This document shows positions 9,866-30,934 of a stretch of 64,000 nt of DNA, in pieces. The notes beneath the pieces are model-generated. The model saw nothing but the letters and a program-made list of their open reading frames with translations. It had not been told where the DNA came from and searched no databases. Source of the DNA: an uncultured Prevotellaceae bacterium (GTDB taxonomy: Bacteria > Bacteroidota > Bacteroidia > Bacteroidales > Bacteroidaceae); NCBI GenBank assembly GCA_902778255.1, contig CACYXD010000009.1:1-64000 (forward strand), written 5' to 3'. A program made the translations under genes and the position numbers. Numbering within the stretch: the stretch's first letter is position 1; each line of letters begins with the position of its first letter.

Positions 9866-11071
9866 ATGCCGGAAATATCAGTACGAGGACTGGAGATGCC
9901 AGAATCGCCAATTAGAAAATTGGCTCCATTGGCTGTTGCCGCAAAAAAGCGTGGAACGAAGGTTTATCACTTAAACATTGGCCAGCCTGACCTGCCAACA
10001 CCACAGGTAGGATTGGATGCGCTGAAGCAGATAGACCGTTCTATCTTAGAATATTCTCCATCACAGGGCTATCAGAGTTATCGCGAGAAATTGGTGGGCT
10101 ACTATGCAAAGTACAACATCAATGTCACAGCGGATGATATCATCATCACCAGCGGTGGTTCTGAGGCGGTGCTCTTCGCGTTCTTGTCATGTCTGAATCC
10201 TGGCGACGAGATTATCGTACCAGAGCCTGCCTATGCCAACTACATGGCGTTTGCCATTTCGGCTGGTGCCAAGATTCGTACTATCGCCACAACGATTGAG
10301 GAAGGCTTTTCGCTGCCAAAAGTAGAGAAGTTTGAGGAGCTGATCAACGAGCGCACACGTGCCATCATGATCTGCAACCCCAACAATCCCACGGGCTATC
10401 TCTACACGCGTCGCGAGATGAACCAGATCCGTGACCTCGTAAAGAAATACGACCTGTATCTTTTCTCTGACGAGGTGTATCGCGAATATATCTACACGGG
10501 CTCTCCCTATATCTCTGCCTGCCATCTGGAAGGTATCGAGCAGAACGTGATCCTGATCGACTCCGTATCAAAGCGCTACAGCGAGTGTGGTATCCGTATC
10601 GGCGCACTGATAACAAAGAATAAAGAGGTACGCGCGGCCGTGATGAAGTTCTGTCAGGCACGCCTTTCTCCTCCACTGATTGGTCAGATAGTAGCTGAGG
10701 CATCACTCGATGCACCAGAGGATTACTATCGCGACGTGTATGATGAGTACGTAGAGCGACGTAAGTGCCTGATTGACGGACTGAACCGCATTCCTGGCGT
10801 TTACTCGCCTATCCCCATGGGGGCTTTTTATACTGTTGCCAAGTTGCCAGTCGATGATGCAGAGAAATTCTGTCGTTGGTGCCTGTCGGAATTTGAGTAC
10901 GAGGGACAAACGGTGATGATGGCCCCAGCAGCTGGATTCTACACCACACCAGGCGCTGGCATCAACCAAGTGCGTATAGCCTACGTCTTGAAGAAAGAGG
11001 ATTTGATGAAAGCCCTCGTTGTGCTTCAGAAAGCATTAGAGGCCTATCCGGGAAGAGTCCTTGAGAAGTGA
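9866..11071 (+). CDS. Class I/II PLP-dependent aminotransferase
   Basis: A 401-aa fold-type I aminotransferase of the aspartate aminotransferase superfamily. Seen are the N-terminal L-N-I-G-Q-P-D motif, I-T-S-G-G-S-E-A cofactor phosphate loop, N-P-N-N-P-T-G, S-D-E-V-Y, the PLP-lysine site D-S-V-S-K-R-Y, and the C-terminal substrate arginine context N-Q-V-R-I-A-Y. The amino acid used cannot be decided from sequence; aspartate, alanine or aromatic substrates are all possible. It has its own promoter and is followed after 35 nt by a permease gene, which looks like chance co-transcription. Confidence 0.9.
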   Translation: MPEISVRGLEMPESPIRKLAPLAVAAKKRGTKVYHLNIGQPDLPTPQVGLDALKQIDRSILEYSPSQGYQSYREKLVGYYAKYNINVTADDIIITSGGSEAVLFAFLSCLNPGDEIIVPEPAYANYMAFAISAGAKIRTIATTIEEGFSLPKVEKFEELINERTRAIMICNPNNPTGYLYTRREMNQIRDLVKKYDLYLFSDEVYREYIYTGSPYISACHLEGIEQNVILIDSVSKRYSECGIRIGALITKNKEVRAAVMKFCQARLSPPLIGQIVAEASLDAPEDYYRDVYDEYVERRKCLIDGLNRIPGVYSPIPMGAFYTVAKLPVDDAEKFCRWCLSEFEYEGQTVMMAPAAGFYTTPGAGINQVRIAYVLKKEDLMKALVVLQKALEAYPGRVLEK

Positions 11072-25810: not shown

Positions 25811-25878
25811 CTAAAAAAAAATGAAAGACCCACCATATTTCTTGATGAATCTTTCATTCTATTTTAAGCAAAAAAGTG

Positions 25879-26673
25879 TTATCGCTTTATTTCGATGTCA
25901 CGACGCACATTATCGCGAATCTTAGTGAGATAACGCTTCATTCCATCTGCATCTTTATTATCGATAATCTCAAGGAGTTCCTTCAACTCCGTACGGATCT
26001 GAGACACCTGGTCGTGGGTGTAGGGGTTGAACAGAATTTCCTGAAGCAGATAGTCATCCTCGTTCAATACGCCCTTGGCAATACGCATGTGGCGTTTGAA
26101 GGTAGTACCAGGTGCATCCTGATGCTTCATCACAGCTGCGAATACAAAGGTCGATACAAAGGGGATACTCAGCGAGTAAGCCACCGTCTTATCGTGCTCT
26201 TCGAACGTGTACTCATAGATATTCAAGCCCAACTTCTGGTAGAGGTCCTTGAAGAAGATGCGTCCCATGTAGTCACCTTCGCTGATGATGATGGCATTTT
26301 CCTCCGACAACTGCTGCAGGTTGGCAAACGTTGGACCAAACATGGGGTGCGTAGATACATAGCGCATACCCGTCTGCTCGTAAAAATCCTTCAAGTCTGT
26401 CTTCACGCTGGCTATATCGCTGATGATACACTCCTTAGGCAGATAAGGAATCACCTCCTTAAACACAGGAATGGTATATTTCAGCGTTACTGCATTGATC
26501 AGCAATTCTGGTTCAAACGCCTTGATTTCCTCGTATGTAGTAAACCGCTGGCAGTTGTAAGTGAAGCGCATACGTTTGGCATCACGTTCAAACACAGCCA
26601 CCTCGTGGTCAAAACTCAGCAGGTCGATGAAAAAACTTCCCATCTTACCTGCGCCCATCACAAGAATTTTCAT
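25879..26673 (-). CDS. tyrA: Prephenate dehydrogenase, short form
   Basis: A 264-aa NAD(P)-dependent enzyme converting prephenate to 4-hydroxyphenylpyruvate, the tyrosine branch. The Rossmann loop is V-M-G-A-G-K-M-G-S-F at the N-terminus; the substrate-site segment S-T-H-P-M-F-G-P-T (about 141-149) is intact. No C-terminal ACT domain is present, so feedback control must come from elsewhere, for instance the operon attenuator. It is the last gene of the aromatic operon, starting 1 nt past the upstream stop. Confidence 0.9.
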   Translation of the reverse strand: MKILVMGAGKMGSFFIDLLSFDHEVAVFERDAKRMRFTYNCQRFTTYEEIKAFEPELLINAVTLKYTIPVFKEVIPYLPKECIISDIASVKTDLKDFYEQTGMRYVSTHPMFGPTFANLQQLSEENAIIISEGDYMGRIFFKDLYQKLGLNIYEYTFEEHDKTVAYSLSIPFVSTFVFAAVMKHQDAPGTTFKRHMRIAKGVLNEDDYLLQEILFNPYTHDQVSQIRTELKELLEIIDNKDADGMKRYLTKIRDNVRRDIEIKR

Positions 26674-26674
26674 A

Positions 26675-27739
26675 TTACTTATTGATAATCTCAATCTGTT
26701 GTCTTACACTCTCTTCGTGAATACCCTCGAAGACCTTAGCTACGAACTCAGCGCCCATACCCAGCAGCGAACCCTGAGCACCACGCTTAGCCAGAATCTC
26801 GTTGTAGCGCGAAGTCTGTAACACCGTCATGTTGTGTTCCTTCTTGTACTGACCTATCTCACGACATACGCGCATACGCTTGGCCAGGAGATCCATCAAT
26901 TGGTTATCTAGCTCGTCAATCTGCTTACGCAACTGCTGAATACCCTCAGTAGTAGCATGTTCATCACGGATGACCAACAGCGAAAGGATATAGTCAAGCA
27001 CATCGGGCGTCACCTGCTGCGAGGCATCGCTCCAAGCCTTATCGGGATCGCAGTGGCTCTCGATAATGAGGCCATCGAAGCCCAGGTCCATAGCCTGCTG
27101 ACACAGAGGTGCAATCAGTTCGCGACGACCACCGATATGACTGGGGTCGCTAATGATAGGCAACTCAGGTATACGACGATGCAGCTCAATGGGAATCTGC
27201 CACATCGGCATATTGCGATAAATCTTCTTCTCGTAAGAAGAGAAGCCACGATGAATAGCGCCAAGACGCTTCACGCCAGCCTGGTTGATACGCTCTAAAG
27301 CACCTATCCACAACTCCAGGTCTGGGTTCACAGGGTTCTTCACAAACACAGGGATGTCAACACCCTGGAGCGAATCGGCCAAAGCCTGCATGGCAAAGGG
27401 GTTTGCTGATGTGCGTGCGCCAATCCACAGAATGTCGATACCATATTTCAGGGCCAACTCCACATGCTCAGGAGTAGCCACCTCAGTAGATACCAACATC
27501 TTCGTTTCTTCCTTCACCTGTTTGAGCCACTGCAAGGCGGGCTCTCCGTGACCTTCGAAGCCACCTGGCTTGGTGCGAGGCTTCCACACTCCTGCACGGA
27601 AGTTATGACAGCCTTTCATAGCCAACTGCTTGGCTGTGTTCATCACCTGTTCCTCAGTCTCTGCAGAGCAAGGGCCTGCAATCACGAAGGGACGTTCGTT
27701 GTCACTCGGTAAATTCAATGGTTGAAGTTCAAGTTCCAT
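26675..27739 (-). CDS. Bifunctional DAHP synthase / chorismate mutase
   Basis: A 354-aa fusion. Residues about 1-260 form a class I DAHP synthase of the KDO8P-synthase-like type (V-I-A-G-P-C-S-A-E, G-V-W-K-P-R-T, D-P-S-H-I-G-G-R-R), which joins PEP and erythrose-4-phosphate at the start of the shikimate pathway. Residues about 265-354 are an AroQ-type chorismate mutase (Q-I-D-E-L-D-N-Q-L-M-D-L-L-A-K-R-M). Such fusions are known in Bacteroidetes and Bacillus, where chorismate or prephenate inhibits the synthase through the mutase domain. It sits between the aminotransferase and tyrA in the Phe/Tyr operon. Confidence 0.94.
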   Translation of the reverse strand: MELELQPLNLPSDNERPFVIAGPCSAETEEQVMNTAKQLAMKGCHNFRAGVWKPRTKPGGFEGHGEPALQWLKQVKEETKMLVSTEVATPEHVELALKYGIDILWIGARTSANPFAMQALADSLQGVDIPVFVKNPVNPDLELWIGALERINQAGVKRLGAIHRGFSSYEKKIYRNMPMWQIPIELHRRIPELPIISDPSHIGGRRELIAPLCQQAMDLGFDGLIIESHCDPDKAWSDASQQVTPDVLDYILSLLVIRDEHATTEGIQQLRKQIDELDNQLMDLLAKRMRVCREIGQYKKEHNMTVLQTSRYNEILAKRGAQGSLLGMGAEFVAKVFEGIHEESVRQQIEIINK

Positions 27740-27744
27740 ATCTT

Positions 27745-27782
27745 AATTTACAATTTGACGATTTACAATTTACTATTTATTG
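27745..27782 (-). repeat. 38-nt AT-rich intercistronic repeat, copy A
   Basis: This segment matches 56942-56979 at 37 of 38 positions although the two lie about 29 kb apart in unrelated operons. It sits just upstream of the DAHP synthase start and contains the stop codon and last codons of the upstream aminotransferase. Confidence 0.75.
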
Positions 27783-28939
27783 AACAATTTTTCAATTCTT
27801 CGAAGCGCCTCTTGGATTTTCTCCTCCTTGGCGCACAAAGATATTCTAATATATCTTTCGCCATTCGATCCGAAGATAAAGCCTGGGGTTATGAAGACGC
27901 GAGCCTCGTGGAGCACACGCTCCGTCAGGTCTTCCACGTTCTGAATATCAGCAGGAATCTTGCCCCAAAGGAACATACCCACCTGATCCTTGTCGTATGT
28001 GCAACCCAGGATATCCATAATCTTCTCGGCCCACTGGCGACGACGTGCATAGGTCTCGATATTATATTCACGATGCCAAGCCTCGTCATTCTTGTAGGCC
28101 TCGGCAGCAGCCAACTGAATACCACGGAAAGTACCGCTCTCAATATTCGACTGCACCTTCAGTATCCACTGGATGAACTGTGGATTCGATGCACATAGTC
28201 CCACGCGCCAGCCAGGCATATTATGACTCTTCGACATCGAGTTGAACTCAATACAGCAGTCCTTAGCACCAGGCACCTGCAGAATACTCAAGTGCTCCTC
28301 GCTCAGGATGAAGCTGTAGGGATTATCGTTCACAACGACTATGTCGTGGTCCTTAGCAAACTTCACCAGTCGTTCGTAGGTTTCCATCTGAGCACGACCG
28401 CCCGTCGGCATATTGGGATAGTTGGTCCACATCAGCTTTACCTTCGAGAGGTCTATCTTCTCCAACTGATCGAAATCGGGCTGCCAGCCATTATCCTCGC
28501 GCAGATCGTAGTTCACAATCTTCGCACCCAGAATCTTAGATAATGAGGTATAGGTGGGATAGCCAGGATTGGGCACCAGCACCTCGTCGCCAGGATTCAC
28601 AAAGGCCAGCGTCACGTGCAGGATACCCTCTTTCGAACCTATCAATGGCAGCACCTCACTCTTGGCATCCAGATCAACATCATACCAGCGCTTATAGAAC
28701 TGCGCCATTGCCTCACGCAACTCTGGCGTACCCTGTGTGGGCTGATAACCGTGTGCATTGGGTTGGTTGGCCACCTCGCACAACTTGTCTATTGTCTGCT
28801 TTGAGGGGGGCATATCTGGACTGCCAATGGCCAACGAGATAATATCCTTGCCCTCGGCATTGAGTTGTGCCACCTCCTTCAGTTTTCTGCTGAAGTAGTA
28901 CTCCTGTACTAAACTTAATCTGTCTGCTGGTTGTATCAT
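27773..28939 (-). CDS. Class I/II aminotransferase of the aromatic operon
   Basis: A 388-aa fold-type I PLP enzyme. Motifs: I-G-S-P-D-M-P, G-Y-Q-P-T-Q-G, the PLP-lysine site F-N-S-M-S-K-S-H-N, and R-V-G-L-C. From its place between prephenate dehydratase and DAHP synthase it is inferred to transaminate phenylpyruvate and hydroxyphenylpyruvate to Phe and Tyr. Sequence alone resembles the LL-diaminopimelate/alanine type group, so the substrate is an inference from context. It ends inside intercistronic repeat copy A. Confidence 0.88.
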   Translation of the reverse strand: MIQPADRLSLVQEYYFSRKLKEVAQLNAEGKDIISLAIGSPDMPPSKQTIDKLCEVANQPNAHGYQPTQGTPELREAMAQFYKRWYDVDLDAKSEVLPLIGSKEGILHVTLAFVNPGDEVLVPNPGYPTYTSLSKILGAKIVNYDLREDNGWQPDFDQLEKIDLSKVKLMWTNYPNMPTGGRAQMETYERLVKFAKDHDIVVVNDNPYSFILSEEHLSILQVPGAKDCCIEFNSMSKSHNMPGWRVGLCASNPQFIQWILKVQSNIESGTFRGIQLAAAEAYKNDEAWHREYNIETYARRRQWAEKIMDILGCTYDKDQVGMFLWGKIPADIQNVEDLTERVLHEARVFITPGFIFGSNGERYIRISLCAKEEKIQEALRRIEKLFNK

Positions 28940-28940
28940 T

Positions 28941-28975
28941 ATTCTTAACTCTTAATTCTTAACTCTTAACTCCTA
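28941..28975 (-). repeat. AT-rich intercistronic repeat, AACTCTTAATTCTT type
   Basis: Tandem units of about 7-8 nt (ATTCTTA, ACTCTTA) between pheA and the aminotransferase gene. The pheA stop codon is within the repeat. It is related to 23287-23324. Confidence 0.55.
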
Positions 28976-29803
28976 ATTCGCCTTGTACTCTCCCAATATC
29001 TTCAAGTCGCGTGTCAGGGGGATGATGGCATCCACAGCCTGACGATAGCGGGTCAAGTCGTTGTAGGTCACATCCACATAGAACAGGTATTCCCACTCCT
29101 TGCCGATGATAGGCAACGACTGAATCTTTGTCAGGTTGATCTTATAGAACGACAGGATGGCAAGTACTGCCGAGAGCGAACCCTCTTCGTGAGGCAGAGC
29201 GAAAACGATGCTGGCCTTGTTGGCTTCAACAAGCGGACGCAGCATATCTGCCTTCTGAGGTGCCGAACATACAAGGAAACGCGTGTAGTTGTGCTTATTG
29301 TCCTCGATACCGTTTTCCAGCACCTTCAGGCCATAAAGCTTGGCAGCCTCTGCATGACAGATGGCAGCCCATCCTTGATGATGACCCTCGGCTATCATCT
29401 TAGCCGACCCAGCCGTATCGTCACCTTCCACAATGCGCAAATTGGGATGATGCTCCAGATAGTGGCGTGTCTGCATCAAGGCTACTGGATGCGAGTGTAC
29501 CTCAGAGATGGTGTCCCAGTCATCCTCGGGCAGACAACAGATGCAGTGGGTAATGTGGAGTTTATGCTCTCCAACCACCGTTGTACCACTGTCGCGCAGC
29601 AACTCGTAGTTGTGCAACAGTGAGCCGGCAATGGTGTTCTCGATGGCTGCCATGCCTATCACCGTTGGGTCCTGGCGCATATTCTCATACACCTGTTCGA
29701 AGGTATTACAGCAGATCAGCTGCAACTGTTCCCCCTCGAAATACTGATGGGCAGCGATGTCGTGAAACGACCCTATCTCTCCTTGTATTGCTATTCGCTT
29801 CAT
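28973..29803 (-). CDS. pheA: Prephenate dehydratase
   Basis: A 276-aa monofunctional enzyme converting prephenate to phenylpyruvate. The N-terminal catalytic domain shows I-Q-G-E-I-G-S-F-H-D, the I-E-N-T-I-A-G-S segment and the family signature N-Y-T-R-F-L-V near residue 170. The ACT regulatory domain follows from about residue 190 (S-I-V-F-A-L-P-H-E-E-G-S-L), which in this family binds Phe for feedback inhibition. It is the first structural gene of the aromatic operon and is preceded by the candidate attenuator. Confidence 0.95.
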   Translation of the reverse strand: MKRIAIQGEIGSFHDIAAHQYFEGEQLQLICCNTFEQVYENMRQDPTVIGMAAIENTIAGSLLHNYELLRDSGTTVVGEHKLHITHCICCLPEDDWDTISEVHSHPVALMQTRHYLEHHPNLRIVEGDDTAGSAKMIAEGHHQGWAAICHAEAAKLYGLKVLENGIEDNKHNYTRFLVCSAPQKADMLRPLVEANKASIVFALPHEEGSLSAVLAILSFYKINLTKIQSLPIIGKEWEYLFYVDVTYNDLTRYRQAVDAIIPLTRDLKILGEYKAN

Positions 29804-29833
29804 ATTTCAACTATTCACTTTTCACTTAATAAG

Positions 29834-29868
29834 AAGCCCCACTATCACTCTTCGTGAAGCGGGGCCTT
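29834..29868 (-). terminator. Attenuator terminator hairpin before pheA
   Basis: On the minus-strand transcript, AAGGCCCC (29868-29861) pairs with GGGGCTT (29840-29834), leaving one bulged G. An inner TCAC/GTGA stem (29857-29854 with 29848-29845) has a 5-nt loop. A U-rich stretch (CUUCUUAUU) follows. The hairpin lies between the leader peptide and pheA, 30 nt before the pheA ATG, so it can only act on read-through into the operon. Confidence 0.75.
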
Positions 29869-29926
29869 ATCTTAATTTTCAACTTTCAATTTGCAATCTT
29901 CAATTACATACGACTACCCGCTTCAC
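29854..29926 (-). promoter_or_regulatory. Candidate antiterminator pairing of the Phe/Tyr attenuator
   Basis: Transcript segment GUGAAGCGGG (29926-29917), inside the leader ORF just after the aromatic codons, is perfectly complementary over 10 nt to CCCGCUUCAC (29863-29854), which forms the 5' side and upper part of the terminator hairpin. The two pairings exclude each other, as in classical amino acid attenuators. Confidence 0.75.
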
Positions 29927-29978
29927 AATTGCTTGTAAAGTAATAATAAAAGTAGAAGTATGCATTAAATTTTGTCAT
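29904..29978 (-). CDS. Phe/Tyr-rich leader peptide of the aromatic operon
   Basis: A 24-codon ORF, M-T-K-F-N-A-Y-F-Y-F-Y-Y-Y-F-T-S-N-C-E-A-G-S-R-M, starting about 24 nt after the predicted transcription start. Codons 7-14 are all Tyr or Phe, and with codon 4 the peptide has five Tyr and four Phe in 24. Its product is expected to have no function; ribosome stalling on these codons under Phe or Tyr starvation would leave the 29926-29917 segment free to form the antiterminator. A ribosome that reaches the stop at 29904 would cover that segment and let the terminator form. The reading frame, codon run and pairing are seen directly; the mechanism is inferred from known trp/phe/his leaders. Confidence 0.8.
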   Translation of the reverse strand: MTKFNAYFYFYYYFTSNCEAGSRM

Positions 29979-30006
29979 TTTTGTTACTATTTGTAATTTT
30001 CGGATG

Positions 30007-30038
30007 CAAAATTATAACAATTCTTTGAAACAACCAAA
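30007..30038 (-). promoter_or_regulatory. Promoter of the Phe/Tyr operon
   Basis: Minus strand: TTTG (30035-30038), a 20-nt spacer and TAATTTTG (30007-30014), a full consensus. It places the leader peptide ATG about 24 nt into the transcript. Confidence 0.75.
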
Positions 30039-30055: not shown

Positions 30056-30934
30056 TCAAATTCCAAAGGGATTCATGTTGGAATAGGCACGCTTCACTTG
30101 CTGTTCCACACCTTCAGCAGAGTAATCACCGCTCACATCGGCCATCTCTTCAGGATTCAGTTCCAACACTTTCTGCATATCTTCCTGTGCCCCACTCTTG
30201 TCACCACGTTCAAACTTTATCTGTCCGCGCTCACGATAGGCATCAACCTGGAAAGGATTCACATCTACCACCTTATTATATATATCTATAGCCTCGTCAT
30301 CGTTGCCTTTTGCATGGGCTATGCGAGCAGCAATCAGTAGCACGTCCTCCTCATCTTCCGTATGTTCCATCAACCAATTCACATCCTGTTCAGCACCGTT
30401 CACGTCACCCATCGACAGCAGCGTCTTGGCACGCAACAGTCGGGCATCGCCAAAATCATCCCTCAGCACGATGGCTTTCGTCAACTGAGCGATACCGTTA
30501 ATCAGGTCATGCTGCCCCAGGTCGGCCTGTGCCATCTGATAATAGGCTGTGGCATTGTCAGGAGCTATCGCTTGCACCTTCTCAGCCAGCGTATGCATCT
30601 GCGCATAGTCTTCCAACATATATGCCACGTGGGCCGCATGTATCATCACCTGTACGTTATCTGGCTGTTCCCGGCTTATCGTCAACAGCCCTTCGAGGGC
30701 CTCCTGTAGTCGGTTCATGTGCAGCAACGTCTGCGACAGATAGTCGTGAATTTCCAAGTCATCATGCACCTTCAACGCCTCGCGGAAGCATTTCTCAGCA
30801 TATTCAAACTGACCAATGCGCATAGCCTTCACACCATCATATTTCATCAAGTCAAACTGCTTGGCGTCAGCATCTTTTTTCTCCTCTTCAGGGCTTTGCT
30901 CCTCCCCTCCGAAAAATGATTTCCAAAATCCCAT
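30056..30934 (-). CDS. Tetratricopeptide repeat protein
   Basis: A 292-aa cytoplasmic protein with a charged N-terminus (E-E-Q-S-P-E-E-E-K-K) and at least five TPR units, for example A-M-R-I-G-Q-F-E-Y-A-E-K-C-F-R-E-A-L near residue 35 and A-Y-R-E-R-G-Q-I-K-F-E-R-G-D-K near 230. No signal peptide or catalytic motif is seen. TPR arrays mediate protein-protein contacts, and the partner is unknown. It is divergent from tatA and lies directly upstream of the Phe/Tyr operon promoter, which starts 18 nt before its stop is reached. Confidence 0.85.
   Translation of the reverse strand: MGFWKSFFGGEEQSPEEEKKDADAKQFDLMKYDGVKAMRIGQFEYAEKCFREALKVHDDLEIHDYLSQTLLHMNRLQEALEGLLTISREQPDNVQVMIHAAHVAYMLEDYAQMHTLAEKVQAIAPDNATAYYQMAQADLGQHDLINGIAQLTKAIVLRDDFGDARLLRAKTLLSMGDVNGAEQDVNWLMEHTEDEEDVLLIAARIAHAKGNDDEAIDIYNKVVDVNPFQVDAYRERGQIKFERGDKSGAQEDMQKVLELNPEEMADVSGDYSAEGVEQQVKRAYSNMNPFGI

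Follow-up and report, generated by a model that had tools for sequence, protein, structure and literature searches.

The window, by which we mean the whole 64,000-nt stretch of DNA analysed, carries on its minus strand pheA, an aminotransferase gene, a gene for a DAHP synthase (DAHPS)-chorismate mutase (CM) fusion and tyrA, in that order and all downstream of a short leader, as the original prediction had stated (Table 1). The aminotransferase most resembles LL-diaminopimelate aminotransferases, and its position in the operon points to a role in aromatic synthesis. An in-frame TTG (26694) lies upstream of the ATG from which tyrA is annotated. Downstream of tyrA follows pheT, whose NCBIfam match is over cut-off, and the gap between the two genes (window positions 25860-25803) holds a terminator-like hairpin, the probable end of the operon, and TACCTTTG (25810-25803); since both sit between tyrA and pheT, the latter probably has its own promoter, without an aromatic leader. 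On the other side of the leader, and on the same strand, lies a TPR gene (30056-30934).

The leader promoter agrees with the Bacteroidetes primary-sigma consensus TTTG / TAnnTTTG (PMC7366714), and transcription probably starts near 29999; a sigma-70 scan of the window, which holds no model for this promoter type, did not list it. All elements claimed beforehand are indeed found on the minus strand: the promoter, the 24-codon open reading frame (ORF) with eight consecutive Tyr/Phe codons, which translation confirms, and the complementarity between a segment of this frame and the 5' side of a hairpin, GTGAAGCGGG being the exact reverse complement of CCCGCTTCAC over 10 nt. The earlier intervals were correct to within 2 nt, the hairpin having been placed at 29868-29834. 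A simple terminator scan of the window did not list this hairpin on the minus strand. It ends 31 nt upstream of the pheA start, which therefore lies outside it. Folding of the 139-nt leader beats all 200 dinucleotide shuffles (z -4.5), and the best fold contains both the terminator and a further hairpin within the ORF, formed by regions 1 and 2, which was absent from the original prediction. A scan of both strands of the whole 3.5 Mb assembly for seven or more TWY triplets in a row gives three distinct sites; two of them consist of TTY alone, and the leader is the only one with a mixture of Tyr and Phe codons.

Table 1. Features of the leader and operon in the window and of the related locus L366 of genome G370
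Feature	Position	Strand	Basis or remark
Promoter, Bacteroidetes primary-sigma type	30007..30038	-	TTTG 30038-30035, 20 nt, TAATTTTG 30014-30007
Leader ORF, 24 codons, MTKFNAYFYFYYYFTSNCEAGSRM then stop	29904..29978	-	translated; conserved in relatives
Regulatory codon run YFYFYYYF, eight successive Tyr/Phe codons	29937..29960	-	read from sequence
Region 1	29933..29940	-	pairs with 29928-29921 (1:2 hairpin), from folding
Region 2, GTGAAGCGGG	29917..29926	-	partner region 1 or region 3
Region 3, CCCGCTTCAC	29854..29863	-	partner region 2 (antiterminator) or region 4 (terminator)
Region 4, 3' side of terminator hairpin	29835..29848	-	folding, pair counts
Terminator-like hairpin	29866-29835	-	-21.3 kcal/mol
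U-rich tract TTCTTATT, interrupted	29828..29835	-	3' of terminator hairpin
pheA, prephenate dehydratase	28973..29803	-	PF00800 180.2 bits, over cut-off; PRK11898 (NCBIfam) 187.6 bits, under cut-off 219
Aminotransferase, LL-DAP/aspartate group	27773..28939	-	NF006756 395 bits, under cut-off 507
DAHP synthase-chorismate mutase	26675..27739	-	PF00793 143.9 bits, over cut-off; NCBIfam both domains, under cut-offs
tyrA, prephenate dehydrogenase	25879..26673	-	ATG start; best NCBIfam prephenate dehydrogenase model 74 bits, under cut-off
Terminator-like hairpin, tyrA/pheT gap	25818..25860	-	terminator scan
Split operon of G370 (L366)	10423-9266, 9247-8192, 8163-7387	-	61, 69, 64% identity to window proteins
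Second putative attenuator of G370 (L366)	10423-10700	-	precedes separate aminotransferase-DAHPS-tyrA operon

We propose, with a probability of roughly 0.92, that this leader is a ribosome-mediated transcription attenuator of the trp/phe type, which senses how much Phe- and Tyr-tRNA is charged and adjusts the expression of pheA, the aminotransferase, DAHPS/CM and tyrA. With both Phe and Tyr plentiful, the ribosome would pass the Tyr/Phe codons, reach the nearby stop codon and cover region 2, whereupon regions 3 and 4 would form the terminator before pheA. When either amino acid is short, the ribosome would stall in the run and leave region 2, whose start lies some 9-11 nt beyond the final aromatic codon, free to pair with region 3; the terminator would then be blocked and the polymerase would enter the operon. 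If no ribosome is stalled there, region 1, consisting of the last run codons and the next few bases, could pair with region 2. The features of a classical attenuator are present, namely clustered codons for the products of the operon, mutually exclusive 2:3 and 3:4 pairings and a terminator between leader and pheA. From these features we infer that the ORF is translated, that transcription ends prematurely, that the leader responds to each of the two amino acids and that the 1:2 stem has a role.

The original prediction had offered conservation of the codon run and of the stems in relatives as one test of itself. To assess how widely the leader occurs, an ATG-started ORF with at least six Phe, Tyr or Trp residues in nine, upstream of pheA, was called as a leader in five sets of regions. 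The genus set comprises the window and 80 named loci, including Prevotella communis, Xylanibacter brevis and P. ruminicola; the family set (40 regions, 20 genera besides that of the window) and the order set (40 regions, 39 of them usable) come from pheA searches; the class set consists of 27 regions, the new ones among the 30 best-scoring loci, with one (L218) from the window's own order; and the set from outside the class consists of 28 of the 30 best-scoring loci, 102 genomes having a match. An aromatic leader precedes pheA in 75 of 81 genus regions, 35 of 40 family regions, and 34 of the 39 usable order regions. In the class set it is present in 15 of the 27 regions, and in the set from outside the class in none of the 28; the reverse-complement control gives 1, 4, 3, 1 and 0 calls for the five sets. 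Raising the threshold to seven leaves 74, 35, 32, 13 and 0 leaders, with 0, 0, 1, 0 and 0 in the control. Additional order regions have it in 19 of 20 cases, as do all 18 regions from the family of genome G360, two of which were already counted. For further tests 55 representatives were taken, one per genus in the window's family and one per other family (36 outside the family). The full promoter motif lies upstream of the leader in 73 of the 75 genus loci (0.4 expected from shuffles). The representatives have it in 23 of 55 cases, and those outside the family in 15 of 36, with 0.2 expected each time.

Six of the 81 genus regions are leaderless, five of them with enough upstream sequence. One (L106) is truncated by the contig end, yet region 2 and the hairpin are visible; in three (L067, L072, L078) another reading frame reaches within 20 nt of pheA, which appears to have been relocated right behind that frame with loss of the leader; and upstream of pheA in L047 no leader was found. 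In L052 the stretch from about 100 to 30 nt before pheA keeps the start and the hairpin, while the aromatic run is gone (MTNKIIIQLRFIDHV), possibly as a decayed attenuator. Five regions of the family set are leaderless as well (L133, L134, L141, L142, L146), and in the first four pheA lies in long frames of about 385-450 aa that may be fusions with chorismate mutase; these have no leader and, in the cases examined, no partner genes. Downstream sequence is available for 11 leaderless loci; one of these (L289) carries the full gene set and others carry part of it, so the leader is not a constant companion of the operon.

The hairpin search found a hairpin with a T-rich tail in all 159 loci that have the run, and among the 55 representatives none of 440 shuffles was as good. 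Pairing between the 40 nt after the run and the terminator arm was assessed by swapping arms between the representatives: the mean energy is -14.1 kcal/mol with a locus's own arm and -10.0 with swapped arms, and not one of 5000 permutations was as low (z -12.9). The 36 representatives outside the family give z -10.6, and for a control zone placed ahead of the leader z is 0.5. The test is not circular, because the arm was picked by the hairpin alone. Terminator arms are alike across loci: the median rank of a locus's own arm is 4, and it comes first in no more than 12 of the 55. The 2:3 duplex is weak in some of the order and class loci, such as L166 (-5.6) and L197 (-8.0). When the family is aligned with MAFFT (106 distinct rows), pairing holds in 91.9% of the 2:3 cells and 92.8% of the 3:4 cells, and both sides have changed in 7 of the 10 pairs of the former and 8 of the 13 of the latter; within the genus (72 rows) the corresponding values are 94.1% and 96.1%, with double changes in 2 of 10 and 3 of 13 pairs, these pair counts having the swap test rather than a shuffle as their control. 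Only two of the ten 2:3 pairs co-vary within the genus because the core GTGAAGCGG is nearly invariant there; the tenth pair is kept in 39 of the 72 rows. Relatives thus preserve the codon run together with both the antiterminator pairing and the terminator, with compensatory change, so that the test set by the original prediction did not refute it, and the comparison, extending to the ORF, promoter, spacing and match of codons to genes, bears out the proposed architecture.

Five genus loci (L066, L070, L071, L074, L075) have an earlier stop, which lies at region 2 in another frame, and have lost the tail of the peptide with region 2 unchanged. Judged from these sequences, reading frame and RNA element evolve apart in this group, and since region 2 is kept even where the leader ends early (L066, L074), selection appears to act on the RNA and not on the peptide tail.

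The spacing between run and region 2 would also suit the classical ribosome-dependent geometry that had been predicted. From the last aromatic codon to the start of region 2 the median distance is 9 nt over the 159 loci and 11 nt over the 55 representatives. If the ribosome is assumed to cover 14 nt past the first base of its A site, a ribosome at the run's first codon would leave region 2 free in 55 of 55 representatives, one at the fourth-last codon in 54 of 55, and one at the last codon in 18 of 55, where 1-10 nt would be covered in the rest. Under the same assumption a ribosome at the stop codon would overlap region 2 in 141 of 159 loci (44 of 55 representatives) and miss it in 18 (11 of 55). 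As for the 1:2 stem, comparison with synonymous-codon nulls gives a mean z of -0.46, with 16 of 55 representatives below -1 and 5 above +1, the window itself standing at +0.93. The four codons nearest region 2 favour TAC (p 0.013) and TTT (p 0.010) relative to the four before them. Selection for the 1:2 stem is thereby only modestly supported.

Codon content of the leader follows the gene content of the operon. Among the 55 representative peptides, 54 have both Tyr and Phe and one has Phe only, while 11 also have Trp. Downstream sequence is available for 68 leader loci (49 representatives and 19 of the 20 further order loci), for which the run was taken as the best nine-residue window. Tyr is present in 65 of these 68 runs, and DAHPS lies behind pheA in all 65, with the aminotransferase and tyrA detectable in 50 each. 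The three Phe-only runs come from three families (L256, f15; L274, f25; L334, f35), and in all of them the aminotransferase, DAHPS and tyrA are absent behind pheA within about 6.5 kb, where L256 and L274 have opposite-strand reading frames and L334 has putative ilv genes (named by eye). The association has a Fisher p of 2e-5 over loci and about 6e-5 with one locus per family, values that are partly post hoc, as the pattern was first noticed in 49 loci with two Phe-only cases; the third Phe-only case, the only one among the 19 loci added later, was found after the pattern had been noticed. The 16 other loci examined in family f15 are outside this count; every one of their runs includes Tyr, and each has one or more partner genes downstream of pheA. 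In L274 two Tyr codons do occur in the peptide, past region 2 and beyond the run.

In the genome of L274 (G370) the aminotransferase-DAHPS-tyrA genes lie on a separate contig without pheA. There, about 200 nt before the first matched base, an ORF (MIKNISVFAYFYYYFYFSKK, then stop) has five Tyr codons in the leader; TAAGAGCGGGATTG begins 9 nt after the run and pairs with the terminator arm (-17.9 kcal/mol), and the terminator hairpin (-16.0 kcal/mol) is followed by Ts. As this second leader and terminator are present, G370 holds two putative attenuators, a Phe-only one before pheA and a Tyr/Phe one before DAHPS-tyrA. A search of the first 20 kb of 20 contigs from the genome of L256 (G360) found neither DAHPS nor tyrA, and only an aminotransferase match of 24% identity.

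One may argue that the same attenuator senses mainly Phe and that the Tyr codons are merely tolerated, given that a single base separates the two kinds of codon and that either kind favours the 1:2 stem. In C. glutamicum the aroR leader, with Phe-Tyr-Phe, is reported to respond to Phe limitation and not to Tyr limitation (PMC11802643), and the codon bias near region 2 suggests that RNA pairing also shapes the run. However, a run without Tyr is seen only at loci whose pheA is unaccompanied by the Tyr-branch and DAHPS genes (3 of 3), all 65 loci with these genes keep Tyr, and the leader of the split DAHPS-tyrA operon in G370 has five Tyr codons, so that a mainly Phe-sensing leader appears unlikely, if still worth serious consideration. 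The prediction that one leader senses both Phe and Tyr accordingly draws support from codon content tracking gene content, and is tempered by the reported insensitivity of aroR to Tyr (PMC11802643).

Three further explanations were considered. The leader might act mainly on pheA translation, by sequestration of the start or by translational coupling, or it might engage a different termination factor, for instance Rho, in place of this hairpin; this would suit a hairpin whose terminator function is predicted and whose U-tract in the window is imperfect, but the window hairpin stops well short of the pheA start, and hairpin and T-rich tail lie far beyond shuffles in the 55 representatives, which makes such a mode of action improbable. 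We give slightly less credence still to the idea that the peptide itself acts, by nascent-chain stalling or in trans like peTrpL of S. meliloti: a trans-acting attenuator peptide has been reported elsewhere (PMC7298713) and the present peptide is very aromatic and conserved, whereas its residues outside the run vary freely or vanish by an earlier stop, Tyr and Phe interchange freely, and what is conserved is the RNA pairing. Finally, the TPR gene upstream on the same strand raises the thought that the hairpin is simply its terminator and the small ORF a product of chance. We reject this as extremely improbable, because a conserved promoter sits between the TPR gene and the ORF and because the run, the spacing and the 2:3 pairing are conserved across families with differing arms.

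Attenuation of this kind is classical in E. coli pheL and trpL and in C. glutamicum aroR (PMC11802643; for the mechanism also PMC1183508). With E. coli pheL-pheA (Rfam RF01859, Phe_leader) the window leader shares a Phe-codon-rich ORF, competing hairpins and a terminator before pheA (PMC11802643, PMC1183508); it differs in its mixed Tyr/Phe run, its four-gene operon with DAHPS and tyrA and its promoter type, and RF01859 scores only 16.1 bits on the window (E 3.1), under the gathering score of 55. The aroR-aroF system likewise has a ribosome-mediated leader, with Phe-Tyr-Phe before a DAHP synthase gene, but it is actinobacterial, has three aromatic residues where there are about eight here, and Tyr is reported to be ineffective (PMC11802643). 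Closer by, clues for leader-peptide attenuation before amino-acid operons have been reported from F. psychrophilum, together with a structured 5' element before pheA that is conserved in Flavobacteriaceae and has no Rfam match (PMC9723704). This element shares gene and phylum with the leader described here and is probably the same element, although the main text of that paper describes neither a peptide nor a codon run, nor any pairing or tie to gene content (PMC9723704). Small ORFs of B. thetaiotaomicron are also reported to resemble leader peptides (PMC7366714). Bacteroid-trp (RF01692) is, as proposed for the present leader, a cis-regulatory RNA of Bacteroidetes, and a motif named pheA has been described in Actinobacteria (both PMC2864571, the former in its Table 1). 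The RF01692 model differs in that it matches neither the window nor any of the 40 leader loci from other genera and families that were searched. Bacteroid-trp RNA is linked to trp genes.

In the comparison with Rfam that the original prediction had suggested, no family, T-box included, reached its gathering score in the window or these 40 loci, and at E up to 5 there were only chance-like matches besides the weak one to Phe_leader. As to its distribution, the mechanism has been considered possibly of gamma-proteobacterial origin and rarely transferred (PMC3766115), and as of 2010 it was described as known only from Proteobacteria and Actinobacteria, before the Firmicutes case of that same paper (PMC2965389). 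The earlier claim that a Phe/Tyr leader would be new to the phylum was thus too strong in view of the Flavobacteriaceae element (PMC9723704) and aroR (PMC11802643). In the open-access literature, outside which most subscription papers fall, neither the Phe/Tyr leader nor its spread nor the codon-gene match was found described. The abstract of Vitreschak et al. 2004 reportedly lists Bacteroidetes/Chlorobi among the groups with candidate attenuators, so part of the present finding may already be in print. On the sequence evidence, then, the kind of attenuator is already known, and what is new is its Phe/Tyr form, broad in Bacteroidia and absent from Rfam, with partial earlier hints in print.

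We lean towards the view that the attenuator is ancestral to Bacteroidia and that its run works as an OR gate for shortage of Phe or Tyr, with Trp codons added in some lineages, the codons evolving to match the genes: where pheA leaves, it would take a Phe-only leader, and the separated DAHPS-tyrA operon would keep or gain a mixed one. The match between codons and genes offers an unusually clear natural experiment on what attenuators sense. The proposed mechanism also yields a prediction for how Phe and Tyr synthesis is controlled in Bacteroidia, among them Prevotella and Bacteroides-like bacteria, which are prominent in the gut and rumen. To our knowledge, the phylum to which Bacteroidia belong lacks classical Shine-Dalgarno signals. 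An ancestral OR gate, if real, would imply close coupling of transcription and translation at these leaders; as classical attenuation requires a ribosome close behind the polymerase, the leaders could serve as a simple reporter of such coupling in Bacteroidia. A covariance model of the leader could supply the missing Rfam family.

Elsewhere in the window's genome, no His-rich ORF was found in the region before hisG, and two chorismate-binding genes and ilvD provide no fair test for a leader because they closely follow other reading frames. No leader of this type was found at a second DAHP-type match (contig C7), which looks like a putative KDO8P synthase when its first residues are judged by eye. 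Among the relatives, Trp codons occur inside the aromatic run of some order and class leaders (for example L152, L155, L163, L172, L199 and L215). Behind 80 pheA loci, queries taken from pieces of the trp region of the window's genome gave one weak match to trp genes (28% identity, L265), so trp genes in the operon do not explain these codons; judging by their codons, the Trp-containing leaders might sense all three aromatic amino acids.
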